A stretch of DNA of 64,000 nt. Source: Xylophilus sp. GOD-11R. GTDB lineage: Bacteria; Pseudomonadota; Gammaproteobacteria; Burkholderiales; Burkholderiaceae_C. The DNA is taken from NCBI RefSeq assembly GCF_033546935.1, contig NZ_CP137854.1, positions 1,612,001 through 1,676,000 on the forward strand. Direction: 5' to 3'. A program made the position numbers and the translations under genes. Of this stretch, positions 3,577-14,639 are shown in pieces (position 1 is the first letter of the stretch; each line of letters opens with the position of its first letter). Under the pieces are notes generated by a model. That model searched no databases, was not told the DNA's origin, and was given only the letters and a program-made list of their open reading frames with translations.

Positions 3577-4242
3577 TCAGGCTTTGACGACAGCGGCGGG
3601 GTGGGCGGCGTGATTGCCATGGGCGCCGTGGGTCTGGCCGAGCGCGATCTTCAGCAGGTCGGCGACGGTGTTGGCATTGAGCTTTTCCATGATGTTGGCG
3701 CGGTGCGCCTCCACCGTCTTGATGCTGATGCCCAGGTCGTCGGCGATCTGCTTGTTGAGCCGGCCGGCGACGATGCGTTCGAGCACCTGCGCCTCGCGCG
3801 AGGTGAGCTTGGCCAGCAGCGCGTCGCGGCTGGCGGCCTGCTGCGAGTCGGCGAAGACTTCCTTGGCGTGGTCGAGCATGCGTTCGACCACGGCGACGAG
3901 TTCGTCTTCCTTGAACGGCTTCTGGATGAAGTCGAGCGCGCCCTTCTTCATGGTGTCGACCGCCATCGGCACGTCGCCGTGGCCGGTGATGAAGACGATG
4001 GGCAGCGGCGACTTGCGCTCGATGAGCCGGTCCTGCAGCTCGATGCCGCTCATGCCGCCCATGCGGATGTCGACGACGAGACAGGCGATCTCGCGAGGGT
4101 CGTAACGGGAGAGAAATGACTCGGCGGACTCGAAACAGCGGACGCGGAAGTCCTTGCCTTCGAGGAGCCATTGCACGGAATCGCGGACGGCTTCGTCGTC
4201 GTCCACCACGTATACCGTGCCTTTTTTGGGAATCAAGCTCAT
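3577..4242 (-). CDS. FixJ/NarL-type two-component response regulator
   Basis: A 221-residue regulator with an N-terminal receiver domain (acidic DDDE at 14-17, phospho-acceptor Asp58 in VVDIRM, Lys108 in QKPF) and a C-terminal LuxR-type helix-turn-helix at about 146-195 ([33 protein letters not shown]). This is the FixJ layout. The ATG at 4242 overlaps the stop of the upstream PAS histidine kinase in an ATGA, so the pair is translationally coupled and almost certainly cognate. The tail after residue 200 is His/Ala-rich and unremarkable. The pair is divergent from aceE, so a role in regulating pyruvate dehydrogenase or central carbon flow is possible, but that rests on position only. Confidence 0.92.
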
Positions 4243-6791
4243 GCGGTCACGCCCGGTTTTTGTGGGTTGGCTGGAATGGAGTTGTCTCTAGCCGGTAGCA
4301 ATGGTATCCAGAAGGAAAAACGGCAACCGGCGACCTCCGGACCATTGTAGAGGTTCTCGGCGTGCATGCGGCCCTGATGCGACTCCACGATGCTGCGGCA
4401 CAGGTTCAGTCCCATGCCCATGCCTTCGGACTTGGTGGAGAAGAAAGCCTCGAACAACCGGTCCAGCACTTCGGGCGCCAGGCCGCCGCCGGTATCGAGT
4501 ACGGTGAACTCGATGGCCGGCTGCATCTCGACCTGCTTGGGCAGCACCCGCAGCTCGACGCTGCGTCGCCCCGACGGCCGACCGGCGTTGTCGACCGATT
4601 CGGCGGCGTTGCGCATCAGATTGACCAGCACCTGCTCGATGAGGATCGGGTCGACCATCAAGGTGGGCAGGCGTGCCGCGACGTAGTGCGACAGTCGGAT
4701 GCTGCGCCGCCGCATCTCGATGTCGGCCAGCTCCACCGCTTCGGCCACCATGCTGGCCACGTCCGAGGGTGTGCGGTTGGGTTCGCTGCGTTTCACGAAG
4801 GCGCGGATGCGCTGGATGATCTGGCCGGCGCGTTGCGCCTGGTGGGCGGTCTTGTCGAGCGCCGACAGCAGCATCTGCGGATCGGCGTTGCCGCCCTTGA
4901 TGCGCGAGATGAGGCCGCTGCAGTAATTGCTGATGGCGGTGAGCGGCTGATTGAGTTCGTGCGCCACCGACGAGGCCATCTCGCCCATGGTGATCAGCCG
5001 GCTCACCGACTGCGCTCGCTCTGCCTGCGCGGCCGCCTGTTCCTCGGCGTCGCGGCGGCTGGTGATATCGGTGGCGATCACCATCTGGGCGAGACGGCCA
5101 TCGACCCAATTGAGGTAGCGCGAACGCACCTCGAGCCAGCGGCCGAGCGCGGGAATGAAGATCTCCGAGTTCTCGGTCTGGGCCTGGGTGAGCGACTCCG
5201 TGGGCAGGCCGGCCAGGCCGTCGACGTCGTCCAGGGTGTCTTCGCCACCGGCGCTGGCCGGCTGCAGGCCAGCCTGCGCGGCCATCTGCAGATGGCCCTC
5301 GGCTTCGGCGCCGAACCACTGGCGGTAGAGGCGGTTGGCGAAGAGGATCTCCTGGCTGCCGATCGGCGCCACCGACACCGAGGCGTCCAGGGCCTCGAGC
5401 ACGATGGTGAATCGCTCGTGCGAGGCGGTGAGCTGCGCGCGGATGCGGTTGGGCTCGGTGATGTCGGTCATCGAGGTCATCCAGCCGGTCTGCTGGCCGC
5501 GCGGGTCGATGAGCGGCGACACGTAGAGCCGGGCGTCGAAGATGGCGCCGCTCTTGCGCTTGACGCGCACCTGGAAACCGCCGGGCTTGTGGTGGCCGGT
5601 GAGCTCGTCGTTGAGCAGGTCGGCCAGGTGGGTGTGGTCTTCCTCCGGCCAATAGGAATAGGGCGGGGTCTGGCCGACCAGCTCGCTCTCGGTCCAGCCG
5701 GTCATCTGGCAGAAGGCAGCGTTGACGTAAGTGATGCGGCTTTCCATGTCGAGGGCGCGCATGCCGGTCAGCACCGAGTTTTCCATGGCCCGGCGGAAAT
5801 ACGTCTCGGCGATGAGCGCCTGCTGGGCCTGCATGCGGCGCCGCGTATGGCGCCAGTTGGCGATGAGCATCCAGGCGGTCATCGCGCTCAACATGCCGAC
5901 CAGCCAGAAAAAGCCGCTGCCCACTACGCCGAGCGAGGTGCGGTAAGCCTGCGCGTGCAGCACCAGCGCATTGCCCACCGGCGACACCGGCACCTGGTAG
6001 GTGATGGAGTTCGCGCCCCAGGGCACGAGGCGCTTGGCGCCGGTCTGCGGTGCCAGCGGCGTGCCGGCGAGCGGCCGGCCGCTGCCGTCCTGCAGCGTGA
6101 CCGCATAGCGGGCCAGCACCTCGCTGGGCACGCCGTAACGCAGCAGGCTGTCGATGGAGTATTCGGCCAGCAGCACGCCGGCGAAGTGGCCCTGCACCGA
6201 AAGCGGAATCTGCAGCTGCAACAGCGTGGTCGGCAGCACGCCGCCGACCGGCTGCGAATAGATGGGTTGCTGCAGGTCGCGGGTGAGGCTGAACACGCCT
6301 TCGGTCTCGCCCGGTCGCAACACGTCGTCGGTGCGGCGCAGCCAGGTGGCGGGCAGCGACGGCGCCGCGTGGCTGGCCAGCACCTTGCGCCGTTCGTCGA
6401 TCCAGCTCAGCGCCTGCAGCTCGGGGTACTGGCTGATCAGCGACTCGGAGCGGCTGTTGAACTCCTGCCGGTCGATCTCCTCGTTGGCGATGTCGCGCGC
6501 GATGCGCATCAACTGCTCCTGCCGCTCCAGCAAGCGCAGCCGCAGCCGCTGCTGCGCGTATTCGACGTCACGCCGCACCGCTTCGTGCTCGCGCTCGAGT
6601 TCCTCGCTGCGCAGATAGGAAAAGGCGGTGGCGATGGCCGCCAGGAACAGCAGCACCGCGGCCAGCGGGGCCAGCATGGCGAACCGGTCCTGGCGCTGCG
6701 GTGACTGGCGCTGCCACCAGTGGCGCCACAGCGCGGCGGCGCGCGCAGGCCAGCGGCGCGTGCGCGGGGAGGCTTTGGAATGGTTAACCAT
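4239..6791 (-). CDS. membrane PAS-sensor histidine kinase
   Basis: From the ATG at 6791 (MVNHSKASPRTRR) the product is 850 residues; an in-frame ATG at 6851 is an alternative and neither has a clear Shine-Dalgarno. It has a membrane segment at about 37-60, a periplasmic sensor region to about 285, a second membrane segment at about 288-312, two PAS regions (about 330-450 and 460-590, the first containing ITYVNAAFCQMTGW), and a kinase core. His611 lies in VAHELNQPL, followed by N-box VNLMRNAAES and the G-boxes DTGGGL and GMGMGLNL. This is FixL/DctB-like. The stop overlaps the response regulator start. The periplasmic ligand is not apparent. Confidence 0.92.
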   Translation of the reverse strand: MVNHSKASPRTRRWPARAAALWRHWWQRQSPQRQDRFAMLAPLAAVLLFLAAIATAFSYLRSEELEREHEAVRRDVEYAQQRLRLRLLERQEQLMRIARDIANEEIDRQEFNSRSESLISQYPELQALSWIDERRKVLASHAAPSLPATWLRRTDDVLRPGETEGVFSLTRDLQQPIYSQPVGGVLPTTLLQLQIPLSVQGHFAGVLLAEYSIDSLLRYGVPSEVLARYAVTLQDGSGRPLAGTPLAPQTGAKRLVPWGANSITYQVPVSPVGNALVLHAQAYRTSLGVVGSGFFWLVGMLSAMTAWMLIANWRHTRRRMQAQQALIAETYFRRAMENSVLTGMRALDMESRITYVNAAFCQMTGWTESELVGQTPPYSYWPEEDHTHLADLLNDELTGHHKPGGFQVRVKRKSGAIFDARLYVSPLIDPRGQQTGWMTSMTDITEPNRIRAQLTASHERFTIVLEALDASVSVAPIGSQEILFANRLYRQWFGAEAEGHLQMAAQAGLQPASAGGEDTLDDVDGLAGLPTESLTQAQTENSEIFIPALGRWLEVRSRYLNWVDGRLAQMVIATDITSRRDAEEQAAAQAERAQSVSRLITMGEMASSVAHELNQPLTAISNYCSGLISRIKGGNADPQMLLSALDKTAHQAQRAGQIIQRIRAFVKRSEPNRTPSDVASMVAEAVELADIEMRRRSIRLSHYVAARLPTLMVDPILIEQVLVNLMRNAAESVDNAGRPSGRRSVELRVLPKQVEMQPAIEFTVLDTGGGLAPEVLDRLFEAFFSTKSEGMGMGLNLCRSIVESHQGRMHAENLYNGPEVAGCRFSFWIPLLPARDNSIPANPQKPGVTA

Positions 6792-6946
6792 GGTGGTCAA
6801 GTGTAGGCGCCGGGGGTAGAAAGTCTGCTGCACTGCAGCATCGTTTTTCATTATATGAAACCAACATGCACGATTCGAAATGAAAAGAAAGTGTGAGAAA
6901 CTCGCCGCCGCCCGTGCCGGACCGGCACCCCCTCTTGGAGACAAGC

Positions 6947-9664
<2,718 letters not shown>

Positions 9665-9686
9665 CGCATTTCCGGAGACTCACGAT

Positions 9687-11387
9687 ATGGCATTGGTGGA
9701 AGTTAAGGTCCCGGACATCGGCGACTTCAAGGATGTCGCGGTCATCGAGCTGCTGGTCAAGCCGGGCGACACCGTCGCGGCGGACCAGTCGCTGATGACG
9801 GTGGAGTCGGACAAGGCCTCGATGGAAATTCCGTCGTCGGCTGCGGGCGTGCTCAAGGAGCTCAAGGTCAAGATCGGCGACACCGTCAACATCGGCGACC
9901 TGATCGCGACGCTGGAGTCCGACGCGACGGCGGCCCCGGCGCCCGCTGCGGCTGCGGCTGCGCCGGCCCCGGCTGCTGCCCAGGCGAGCGCGCCCGCTCC
10001 GGCGCCTGCCGCGCCGGCCCCGGCGCCAGCCGCATCGGCTCCGGCTGGCCCGGTCGAGATCAAGGTGCCCGACATCGGCGACTTCAAGGACGTCTCGGTC
10101 ATCGAGGTGCTGGTCAAGCCCGGCGACACCATCGCGGCCGAGCAGTCGCTGATCACCGTCGAATCCGACAAGGCCTCGATGGAGATTCCCTCGTCGGCCG
10201 CCGGCGTGCTCAAGGAACTCAAGGTCAAGGTCGGCGACGTGGTGAACATCGGCGACCTGGTCGCGATCCTCGAAGGCAGCGCTGCGGCCGCGCCGGCTCC
10301 TGCCGCCGTTCCGGCGCCGGCTGCACCTGCGCCCCAGGCCGGTGCCGCAGCTCCGGCTCCCGCACCCGCCGCGCTGGCCAGCAAGCCGGTCGAACGCACC
10401 GATCCCAACGCGGCACTGCCACCGCACCAGCCGGGCAGCGCCACCGGCGCGCTGCCGCACGCATCGCCCTCGGTGCGCAAGTTCGCCCGCGAACTCGGCG
10501 TGCCGTTGGAAGAGGTCAAGGGTTCCGGCGCCAAGGGCCGCATCACCCAGGAAGACGTGCAGAACTTCACCAAGGCGGTGATGTCCGGCGCGGCCTCCAC
10601 CAAAGCGTCCTCGGCCAAGGCCCCGGCGACCTCGGGCGGTGGCGACGGCGCTGCACTGGGTCTCATCCCCTGGCCCAAGGTCGACTTCGCCAAGTTCGGC
10701 CCGGTCGAACGCAAGGACCTGTCGCGCATCAAGAAGATCAGCGGCGCCAACCTGCACCGCAACTGGGTGATGATTCCGCACGTCACCAACAACGACGAGG
10801 CCGACATCACCGAGCTCGAAGCCTTCCGTGTCTCGACCAACAAGGAGAACGAGAAGAGCGGCGTCAAGGTGACCATGCTCGCCTTCGTCATCAAGGCGGT
10901 GGTCGCTGCGCTCAAGAAATTCCCCGAGTTCAACGCCAGCCTCGACGGCGACGCTCTGGTCTACAAGCAGTACTTCAACATCGGCTTCGCGGCGGACACG
11001 CCCAACGGCCTGGTGGTGCCCGTGCTGAAAGATGCCGACAAGAAGGGCATCCTGCAGATCAGCCAGGAGATGTCCGAGCTCGCCAAGAAGGCGCGCGACG
11101 GCAAGCTCGGCGGCGGTGACATGTCGGGCGGCTGCTTTTCGATCAGCTCGCTCGGCGGCATCGGTGGCACGCATTTCACGCCCATCATCAATGCACCGGA
11201 AGTCGCCATCCTCGGCTTGTCGAAGGGCCAGATGAAGCCGGTGTGGGACGGCAAGGCCTTCGTGCCGCGCCTGGTGCTGCCGCTGAGCCTGTCGTATGAC
11301 CACCGGGTCATCGACGGTGCGTCGGCCGCACGCTTCAACGCGTACCTGGGCCAGCTGCTGGGCGACCTGCGTCGCATCACACTCTGA
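9687..11387 (+). CDS. aceF: pyruvate dehydrogenase E2, dihydrolipoamide acetyltransferase
   Basis: The 566-residue E2 core protein transfers the acetyl group to CoA. It has two N-terminal lipoyl domains, with predicted lipoyl-lysines Lys43 and Lys162 in [11 protein letters not shown], separated by Ala/Pro linkers. A peripheral-subunit binding domain lies at about 258-294 ([22 protein letters not shown]), and the catalytic domain ends with His539/Asp543 in SYDHRVIDG. The ATG at 9687 follows a GGAG. The two lipoyl domains are almost identical to each other and to the one at the N-terminus of LpdA, which suggests recent duplication or conversion. The next gene in the operon is 130 bases downstream, beyond a hairpin-rich spacer. 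Confidence 0.97.
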
Positions 11388-11397
11388 CCATGGCTAA

Positions 11398-11490
11398 CCT
11401 CCAGGCTTCGCGCACTGCGTGTCGCTACGCCAACCCCCTTCCAGGGGACAACACCGGCGGTCCGGCGAAGCCGGTCCCACGGTGTTCCCT
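11398..11490 (+). repeat. hairpin-rich intergenic element inside the PDH operon
   Basis: The spacer between aceF and the Ntn hydrolase contains nested inverted repeats: CCCCT-tcc-AGGGG near 11437-11449, then AACACCG (11450-11456) pairing with CGGTGTT (11480-11486) around an inner CCGGC-gaa-GCCGG hairpin. There is no U-tract, so it is not a classical terminator. Its composition resembles the dispersed REP-like intergenic sequences I associate with Comamonadaceae genomes; that resemblance is from memory. No second copy was noticed in this window. It could act as an mRNA-stability or attenuation element. Confidence 0.5.
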
Positions 11491-11517
11491 GGCAGAAGGA
11501 CAGCCGGAGTACATCGA

Positions 11518-12108
11518 ATGACCACGGTAGTCGTCGTAAGAAAGAACGGCCAGGTCGCCCTGGCCGCCGACACGCTGGTGACCTTCGGCGACACCCGGCT
11601 GAAGCACCGTTTCGAGGACAACTCCAAGATCTTCGCACTCGACACGCCGGCAGGCACCACCTACGTCGGCATGGCCGGCACGGTGGCGCACTTTCCGGTG
11701 CTGCGCAAGTCGCTGGCGGCCATGGCGCCGGAGCAGCGGCTGTTCGGCAGCAAGGACGAGATCTTCGACACCTTCTCGCGACTGCATCCGGTGCTGAAGG
11801 ACACCTTCTTCCTGCAGACCAAGGAAGACGACAACGACCCGTACGAGTCCAGCCAGTTCAGCGTGCTGCTGGCCAATCCGGCGGGCATCTTCGGCCTCTA
11901 CAGCTACCGCGAGGTCTTCGAGTTCAAGGAATTCTGGGGCATCGGTTCCGGCCGCAGCTTCGCGCTGGGCGCCATGCACGCGGCTTACGGCCGTGCCAAG
12001 ACCGCACGCGAGATCGCGCAGGCAGGCGTCGATGCCGGCTGCGAGTTCGACCGCAACTCCGAAGGTCCGGTCAACCTGTTCACCCTCAAATTGAAAGCTG
12101 ACAAATGA
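11518..12108 (+). CDS. beta-proteobacterial proteasome homologue (HslV-like Ntn hydrolase)
   Basis: A 196-residue protein of the proteasome beta-subunit fold. The start at 11518 has GGAG eight bases upstream; the frame is open further 5' but only through the intergenic hairpin element. After removal of Met the chain begins [18 protein letters not shown], parallel to HslV (TTIVSVRRNG...GD). Thr1, Asp17 and a lysine at about 36 of the mature protein match the Ntn catalytic set, and GMAGT matches HslV GFAGG. It fits the known but little studied family called BPH (beta-proteobacteria proteasome homologue), distinct from HslV and Anbu. Its stop overlaps the lpdA start (ATGA), so it is coupled to the PDH operon. 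No unfoldase partner is encoded nearby. The substrate is unknown. Confidence 0.82.
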
Positions 12109-13943
12109 GCCAGCAAGACATCGCCGTCCCGGATATCGGCGACTTCAAGGACGTCCCGATCATCGAGATTCTGGTCAAGCCCGGCGACACGATCGCGGTC
12201 GATCAGAGCCTGGTCACCGTGGAGTCCGACAAGGCCTCGATGGAGATTCCCTCGTCGGCCGCCGGCGTGGTGAAGGAAGTCAAGGTCAAGATCGGCGACG
12301 CGGTGAGCCAGGGCAGCGTGCTGCTCAGCGTGGAGACCGACGGTGCTGCGGCGCCCGCGCCCGCGCCGGCCGCAACGCCTGAGGCCGCGGCCGCCGCACC
12401 GGCACCAGCCGCCACGCCCGCCGCGACGCCCGCTCCGGCTGCCGCCGCTCCCTCGCGCGCCGCCGGCCCGGTCTCCGATCAGCCCGGCGCCGACTACGAC
12501 GTCGTCGTCATCGGCGGCGGCCCCGGCGGCTATTCGGCCGCCTTCCGCGCGGCCGACCTCGGCCTGAAGGTCGCCATCGTCGAGCGATACACCACGCTCG
12601 GCGGTGTCTGCCTGAACGTCGGGTGCATTCCGTCCAAGGCGCTGCTGCATGTGGCCGCGGTGATGGACGAGGTGAAGCATTTTGCCGACCTCGGCGTGAG
12701 CTACGGCGAGCCGTCGCTCGACATCGACAAGCTGCGCGGCCACAAGGAAAAGGTCATCGGCAAGCTCACCGGCGGGCTGGCCCAGATGGCCAAGATGCGT
12801 AAGGTGACGGTGCTGCGCGGCCTCGGCGCCTTCACCGGCGCGCACACGCTGGAAGTGGCCGAAACCACTGGCGCGGGCCAGGAAAAAACCGGCAAGACCC
12901 AGTCGGTGAGCTTCCGTCGCGCCATCATCGCGGCCGGCTCCCAGGCGGTGCGCCTGCCGTTCCTGCCGGACGATCCGCGTGTGGTCGACTCCACCGGCGC
13001 GCTGGGCCTGACGTCGGTGCCCAAGCGCATGCTGATCGTGGGCGGCGGCATCATCGGCCTCGAAATGGGCACGGTGTATTCCACCCTCGGCGCGCGGCTC
13101 GACGTGGTTGAAATGCTCGACGGCCTGATGCAGGGCGCCGACCGCGACCTGGTGAAGGTCTGGCAGAAGATGAACGCGCCACGCTTCGACAACATCATGC
13201 TCAAGACCAAGACCGTCGGCGCCAAGGCGACCGAGGCCGGCATCGAGGTGACGTTCGAAGGCGAGGGCGCGCCCAAGGAGCCGCAGGTCTACGACCTGGT
13301 GCTGCAGGCGGTGGGCCGCTCGCCCAACGGCAAGAAGGTCGGCGCCGACAAGGCCGGTGTCGAGGTCACCGACCGGGGCTTCATCAACGTCGACATTCAG
13401 CTGCGCACCAACGTCAGCCACATCTTCGCCATCGGCGACCTGGTCGGCCAGCCGATGCTTGCGCACAAGGCGGTGCACGAAGGCCACGTGGCGGCCGAAG
13501 TCATCGCCGGCGAACTGCTGGGCGACAAGGAGTTGGCCTCCACCGTGTTCGACGCGCGGGTGATTCCGAGCGTGGCCTATACCGATCCGGAAGTGGCCTG
13601 GGTCGGCCTCACCGAAGACCAGGCCAAGGCGCAGGGCGTGAAGGTGGAGAAGGGCCTGTTCCCCTGGGCGGCTTCCGGCCGGGCCATCGCCAACGGCCGC
13701 GACGAAGGCTTCACCAAGCTGCTGTTCGACGCCCAGACGCACCGCATCGTCGGCGGCGGCATCGTTGGCACGCATGCGGGCGACATGATCGGCGAGATCG
13801 CGCTGGCCATCGAGATGGGGGCCGACGCGGTGGACATCGGTCGCACCATCCATCCGCATCCCACGCTGGGTGAGTCGATCGGTCTGGCGGCGGAGGTGGC
13901 GCACGGCAGCTGCACCGACGTACCGCCTGCACGCAAGAAGTAA
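12105..13943 (+). CDS. lpdA: dihydrolipoamide dehydrogenase (E3) with N-terminal lipoyl domain
   Basis: E3 reoxidises dihydrolipoyl groups of the pyruvate dehydrogenase complex using FAD and NAD. This 612-residue form carries an extra lipoyl domain (about 1-78, Lys43 in ESDKASMEI) and an Ala/Pro linker before the flavoprotein. The FAD site is [14 protein letters not shown] (about 133-146) and the redox disulfide is Cys169/Cys174 in [13 protein letters not shown]. The NAD site is [16 protein letters not shown] ([14 protein letters not shown]), and the C-terminal dimer motif HPHPTLGES carries the catalytic His. It overlaps the preceding Ntn hydrolase by four bases and ends the operon. Lipoyl-bearing E3 is known in several proteobacteria. 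Confidence 0.96.
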
Positions 13944-13952
13944 ATCGCAAGA

Positions 13953-14028
13953 CCGCCCTGGCGACAGGGCGGCAATTCGCCGACGAGGCGCGGCGCCAAA
14001 CAAAAAGCCCGGTGGAAACCGGGCTTTT
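13953..14028 (+). terminator. hairpin and bidirectional terminator after lpdA
   Basis: A first hairpin CCGCCCTG-gcga-CAGGGCGG (13953-13972) has no U-run. The main terminator is at 14002-14028, where AAAAAGCCCGGT and ACCGGGCTTTT form a stem with A and T tracts on both sides. It can stop both the PDH operon and the convergent NlpC/P60 gene. Confidence 0.85.
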
Positions 14029-14060
14029 CGACGTTTGGGGCGTTGTGCCCTGGCTGCAGA

Positions 14061-14639
14061 TCAGCGCGCGGCCGGCAGGTTGGCTGCAGCGGCGATGGCG
14101 GCGTCGTCGGCACCTTCGACGCGGCGGGCACCGTCGAAGCGGCCATTCCAGTAGCCGATGCGCATGTCTTCCACACGCACCTTGGCGCCGGGCTTGGGCG
14201 CGTGGATGAATTTGTTGTCGCCGACGTAGATGCCCACGTGGCTGAAGGCGCGGCGCATGGTGTTGAAGAACACCAGGTCGCCCGGCTTGAGTTCGCTGCG
14301 GTCGATCTTCTGGGTGACGGCGGCCTGCTCGCTGGCGCGGTGCGGGAGCATCAGGCCAACGGTCTGTTCGTAGATGGTGCGCACGAAACCGCTGCAGTCG
14401 ACGCCGGCTTCGCTGGCGCCGCCACGGCGATAGGGCACGCCGATGAAGCCCATGGCGTTGACGACGAGATCGGAAGCACGCTCGGCGACGGAGTTGCGTA
14501 CTTCGCGCAGATGGACCATGAGGCCCTTCTGTGCGAGCAGAGAATCCATGTCGTCGGCTTCGGTGGAAGGGGCGGGAGCCGCGTGGGCCAGGACGGCGGC
14601 ACACGACAACAACACGGCGCAAAGGGCTTTCATCTGCAT
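14061..14639 (-). CDS. secreted NlpC/P60 family peptidoglycan endopeptidase
   Basis: A 192-residue protein with a signal peptide (MKALCAVLLSCAAVLAHA, cleaved after AHA) and an NlpC/P60 domain. The catalytic Cys82 sits in DCSGFVRTIY, His134 in SHVGIYVG, and a polar third residue, His146, in FIHAP; LKPGDLVFF is also typical. It is probably a periplasmic or outer-membrane-associated enzyme cleaving stem peptides. The first Met is two codons before a second (MQMKAL), so 14633 is an equally good start. The gene is convergent with lpdA across a shared terminator and divergent from the sugar dehydrogenase gene. Confidence 0.9.
   Translation of the reverse strand: MQMKALCAVLLSCAAVLAHAAPAPSTEADDMDSLLAQKGLMVHLREVRNSVAERASDLVVNAMGFIGVPYRRGGASEAGVDCSGFVRTIYEQTVGLMLPHRASEQAAVTQKIDRSELKPGDLVFFNTMRRAFSHVGIYVGDNKFIHAPKPGAKVRVEDMRIGYWNGRFDGARRVEGADDAAIAAAANLPAAR

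Follow-up and report, generated by a model that had tools for sequence, protein, structure and literature searches.

Why does a gene for a proteasome-like hydrolase stand inside a pyruvate dehydrogenase (PDH) operon, and what might the enzyme do there? The question is raised by a window of 64,000 nucleotides from Xylophilus sp. GOD-11R (the window being this whole stretch of DNA). The original prediction, made from the letters of the window, described an HslV-like Ntn hydrolase of the BPH family with Thr1, Asp17 and a lysine at about 36, encoded between the E2 and E3 genes and overlapping lpdA by ATGA. All of this was confirmed, the lysine being Lys36; both the family and this genomic context had been described before. 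BPHs are self-compartmentalizing relatives of the proteasome whose structures have been solved and for which PMC5777263 names no substrate. That C. metallidurans carries BPH within its PDC operon was already published (Fuchs et al., 2018; PMC5777263); the surveys of presence, position, clade and independence of HslU are new here.

Identity of the gene and its operon

In sequence searches, the window protein scored 221.7 and 120 bits against BPH entries and 27.4 bits against the best HslV. The closest solved structure by sequence is the BPH of C. metallidurans (52% identity), and a solved BPH is also the best fold match of the predicted monomer model. The gene is not a misnamed HslV, as its TIGR03692 score is 32.4 bits at a cut-off of 157.75 bits, and the curated score for the archaeal-type 20S beta subunit was likewise missed (26 of 224 bits). 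At E up to 1, the window protein had 34 sequence matches, none of them a solved Anbu chain; as a positive control, the genome's own Anbu finds them at E 6.3e-93. This Anbu (275 aa) is encoded at G000:C1:2230452-2231279 (L004:1243-2070, minus strand). HslU is encoded at 4160332-4161675 (643.8 bits, the sole one over the cut-off), beside another PF00227 gene at 4162028-4162555, and the genome has one TIGR03692 match. Since Anbu is present too, HslV, Anbu, and BPH coexist in this genome. Public records call several BPHs "MFS transporter" (P0011, P0031, P0047, P0063, and others) and further ones HslV, an annotation error that is spreading.

Table 1. Features of the PDH operon, in positions of the window
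Feature	Position	Strand	Basis or description
aceE-type pyruvate dehydrogenase E1	6947..9664	+	TIGR00759, 1438.7 bits
aceF-type E2, two lipoyl domains	9687..11387	+	TIGR01348, 748.5 bits
E2-bph spacer with hairpin-forming dispersed repeat	11388..11517	+	
bph	11518..12108	+	Betaproteobacteria proteasome homologue (BPH), 196 aa
ATGA overlap, bph stop / E3 start	12105..12108	+	sequence
lpdA-type E3, N-terminal lipoyl domain	12105..13943	+	TIGR01350, 475.8 bits; Biotin_lipoyl residues 5-74

The E1 start in Table 1 is a chosen one, the longest ORF starting with GTG at 6893. The Pfam domains of E2 are Biotin_lipoyl (two stretches), E3_binding, and 2-oxoacid_dh. The repeat in the spacer upstream of bph (123 bases) has at least 34 matches in its own genome, with its own copy counted and 40 of 59 candidates scored, and its predicted fold is a long hairpin with -54 kcal/mol (z -2.0). 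At the same junction, two BPH-positive genus mates (L069 and L070) have a 4-base overlap and no repeat spacer. The overlap between bph and E3 is 4 bases long in 21 of 61 family loci, and ATGA coupling was hence rejected as a conserved device. A promoter scan of positions 6500-14300 found none, where 0.6 would be expected, and is uninformative for this organism. Divergent to the operon (3577-6944) lie genes for a PAS-type histidine kinase and a LuxR-type response regulator, a candidate regulator. A tie between BPH and the lipoyl domain of E3 was also rejected: 24 of 24 E3 loci from BPH-less genomes align from query residue 1, so that the lipoyl-domain E3 also occurs without BPH.

Active site and genomic contexts

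The window ORF begins with MTT, placing Thr1 (ORF residue 2) directly after Met, without a propeptide; in mature numbering, the active-site residues are Thr1, Asp17, Lys36, and the oxyanion-hole Gly53. Conservation was assessed in 101 BPHs, i.e., the window copy and those of 100 fetched loci. Of these, 98 have Thr at position 1, among them all 71 PDH-type copies, and three have Ser; position 17 is Asp in 98 and Glu in three, all PDH-type. The catalytic Lys and the Gly at ORF position 54 are invariant (101/101). The alignment, in which missing Ntn residues would have spoken against the original prediction, leaves the active site of the window BPH intact. The three Ser1 copies (L157:4445-5014, L163:6323-6901, L165:6333-6902) all come from the window's GTDB order, whereas PMC5777263 describes Ser1 for BPHs outside Betaproteobacteria; in the BPH tree, two of the three branch off deeply, apart from the rest.

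An acidic pore loop lies between H2 and S7 (ORF about 97-115) and is the least confident block of the monomer model. In 71 PDH-type sequences, the segment 97-115 holds on average 5.14 acidic residues (net charge -4.14). As other BPH types are similar or more acidic (means of 5.6-6.7), the acidity is not peculiar to the PDH type. The PDH clade does differ from other BPHs at position 20 (Val in 66/71, others mostly Thr) and position 59 (Pro in 63/71, others mostly Leu), and has Tyr129 in 70/71. By proteasome numbering and our own count, positions 20 and 59 would line the S1 pocket, Pro59 presumably corresponding to proteasome position 53 by the same count. Given these differences, a clade-specific substrate is possible.

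In samples of 399 genomes each, BPH was present in 99 for the window's family and in 151 for its order. Regions were fetched for 60 of the 99 BPH-positive family genomes, spread over genera, plus the window, and for 40 of 154 matches in the order; Pfam names of neighbors were taken from one representative per cluster. In all 60 fetched family loci, bph follows E2 and precedes E3, all on one strand, with some of the E3s cut by a contig end. Among named genome contigs, 78 of 80 (the best 80 of 553) have the same arrangement, a count that is not independent of the former one, as the two sets of loci partly overlap; in the two exceptions, the upstream side is cut or there is no recognized E3 within 400 bases. 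The original prediction would have been undermined by a bph not conserved beside aceF/lpdA, whereas the position proved stable throughout the fetched family loci. As to its suggestion of co-regulation with PDH, co-expression is likely given the conserved E1-E2-BPH-E3 gene order.

At the level of the order, 10 of the 40 fetched loci have the E2-BPH-E3 arrangement. The other 30 include nine with an argG-cluster gene upstream, eight with an Hsp33-cluster gene downstream, and 13 left unassigned. Thus, the three published contexts of BPH (argG, PDC, hsp33), credited in PMC5777263 to Valas and Bourne (2008), are reproduced in the window's order. Downstream of argG-type BPH, a YajQ/DUF520-cluster gene was observed in six of the nine argG loci (L158, L162, L164, L166, L167, L168), a neighbor of which the cited portions of PMC5777263 make no mention.

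Presence, loss, and inheritance

For comparison, 26 of the 300 BPH-less family genomes were searched. An E3 locus was obtained from 24 of them, while G537 and G417 had no full-length close match. E2-E3 persists in all 24, two of them genus mates of the window, and in 22 the two genes are directly joined (gap of -4 to 96 bases). In the remaining two, the slot is filled by another ORF (L174:3396-4091 and L187:3471-4355), of which one encodes a DUF4253 protein and the other matches no Pfam family. The six sampled genomes of the window's genus are evenly divided, three with BPH and three without, and thus offer natural comparisons between close relatives.

An E3 tree was built from 56 of the 61 BPH-positive loci (cut or short E3s were excluded) and the 24 BPH-less ones. 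On it, BPH must have been gained or lost at least 13 times, five of these changes being forced by starred (strongly supported) branches, as compared with a mean of 20.9 in shuffles; changes on a tree cannot alone tell gain from loss. In the BPH tree, obtained by a quick method, all 71 PDH-linked copies fall on one side of a branch with SH-aLRT 89. More than one entry of BPH into the PDH operon, suspected for L147, is therefore unsupported, if not firmly dismissed, because the tree is a quick one and L147 a long branch. Of the BPH and E3 splits compared at support of at least 95, seven of ten are identical and one conflicts; at support of at least 80, 14 of 33 conflict. As the two trees agree only partly, regain by transfer is possible. 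Pairwise distances, calculated like dN/dS for 46 of 61 operons, show that BPH tracks E1-E3 moderately (Spearman 0.41-0.52).

These observations fit best with one ancestral entry followed by mostly vertical inheritance and repeated loss, with some exchange possible. The entry between E2 and E3 would have occurred in an ancestor common to several Burkholderiales families, after which BPH would mostly have been inherited in place or lost. Where present, BPH is under purifying selection: its median dN/dS is 0.118 (13 of 14 pairs with dS < 1.5), next to 0.103 for E1, 0.155 for E2, and 0.093 for E3, with one outlying pair, L075 and L124, at 0.459. A search for E3 residues correlated with the occurrence of BPH, comprising 506 tests over 232 columns and seven independent pairs on starred branches, had no power.

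Function and known systems

The original prediction allowed that BPH may recruit an ATPase from elsewhere, and HslU could be the one if BPH were an HslV paralogue that uses it as a shared unfoldase. The window genome has HslU, and published clustering derives BPH from HslV (PMC5777263). However, BPH presence is independent of HslV, which occurs in 82 of the 99 family genomes with BPH and in 255 of the 300 without it (Fisher p 0.63). Moreover, HslU was missing at E 1e-60 in 16 of 17 BPH-positive, HslV-negative family genomes, although it was found in 3/3 HslV-positive controls. Eleven of these 16 genomes reach a completeness of at least 99%, one of them (G491) consisting of a single contig; the remaining five reach 76-92%, and their gaps may hide HslU. 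HslU is therefore not an obligate partner of BPH, an obligate partnership being refuted by the HslU-less genomes. Published pull-downs, mentioned in PMC5777263 as data not shown, contained neither HslU nor another unfoldase nor PDH subunits. Sharing of HslU is thus barely credible, while some other ATPase may serve.

We favor, with a probability of about 0.7, the view of BPH as a Thr hydrolase that forms rings, needs no ATP and is maintained by purifying selection; it would be expressed together with PDH, which can do without it, and the operon would mainly be its site of expression. Its orthologues form double rings of 14 subunits with seven-fold symmetry and Thr1 facing an acidic chamber, and epoxomicin was bound to Thr1 (PMC5777263); as an orthologue of the C. 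metallidurans protein, the window BPH would have the same architecture. Gene order and overlaps suggest that BPH and PDH are made from one operon. Working without HslU as an obligate partner, the enzyme would most likely be a peptidase or hydrolase whose substrates, once inside the chamber, are small, unfolded or damaged; "peptidase" is a word we infer, because PMC5777263 reports no activity of BPH on standard peptides or casein. Its usefulness would be conditional, which would explain both the frequent loss and the purifying selection where it is kept, and the PDH operon would provide steady expression rather than substrate. Counting against this preferred view are the lack of activity on those substrates, the partial agreement of the BPH and E3 trees, and the moderate correlation of pairwise distances. 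Two more observations do so by hinting at something linked to PDH, namely, the stable E2-E3 position (60/60) and the PDH-clade residues 20, 59, and 129.

These last two observations would suit a BPH that serves PDH alone, clearing away E2/E3 or lipoyl domains that are damaged or in surplus, and that is co-translated for that reason. So would the long Ala/Pro-rich linkers of E2 and E3, possible cleavage sites for an ungated protease. The original prediction had suggested that BPH might take part in the turnover of PDH subunits or in the quality control of lipoyl proteins, and here more evidence stands against this than for it. E2-E3 is kept in all 24 BPH-less loci, mostly with nothing between the genes and even in genus mates, while BPH itself comes and goes; the argG and hsp33 clades retain the same active site; and, according to PMC5777263, PDH subunits are absent from the pull-downs and BPH is without effect on carbonylation patterns. 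A dedicated role is accordingly disfavored and, in our estimate, unlikely. It is distinctly unlikely that the PDH-operon BPHs form a specialized branch that, without ATP, trims the flexible linkers of E2/E3 or a lipoyl-peptide product and so tunes PDH under stress; genomes losing BPH would then manage without such tuning. A BPH that is a neutral passenger, in decay and retained fortuitously because its operon is strongly expressed, would agree with the patchy presence and its changes and with the absence of activity in published assays (PMC5777263), but a dN/dS of about 0.12, similar to E1-E3, and the invariant catalytic Lys and Gly make it very improbable.

We know of no physiological role of BPH so far, and no later functional paper was among the literature matches listed. 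The question is narrowed by the absence of HslU from nearly all HslV-less BPH genomes and by the persistence of E2-E3 without BPH; if a link to PDH were shown, it would give this family its first known physiological function.

In alignments with the C. metallidurans BPH (PDB 5ovu; PMC5777263), four extra residues follow the Lys strand in the window copy and its close relatives; the window locus also differs in having the dispersed repeat in the E2-bph spacer. The T. denitrificans BPH (PDB 5ovs, 5ovt) is more distant, with 39% identity to the window protein, and its gene is in an argG operon. Unlike HslV (ClpQ), the window BPH has no adjoining hslU and carries a long acidic pore loop, the true HslVU being encoded elsewhere in the genome. 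With Anbu it has in common the proteasome-like fold family, but Anbu has a gene of its own in this genome, at about 2.23 Mb.
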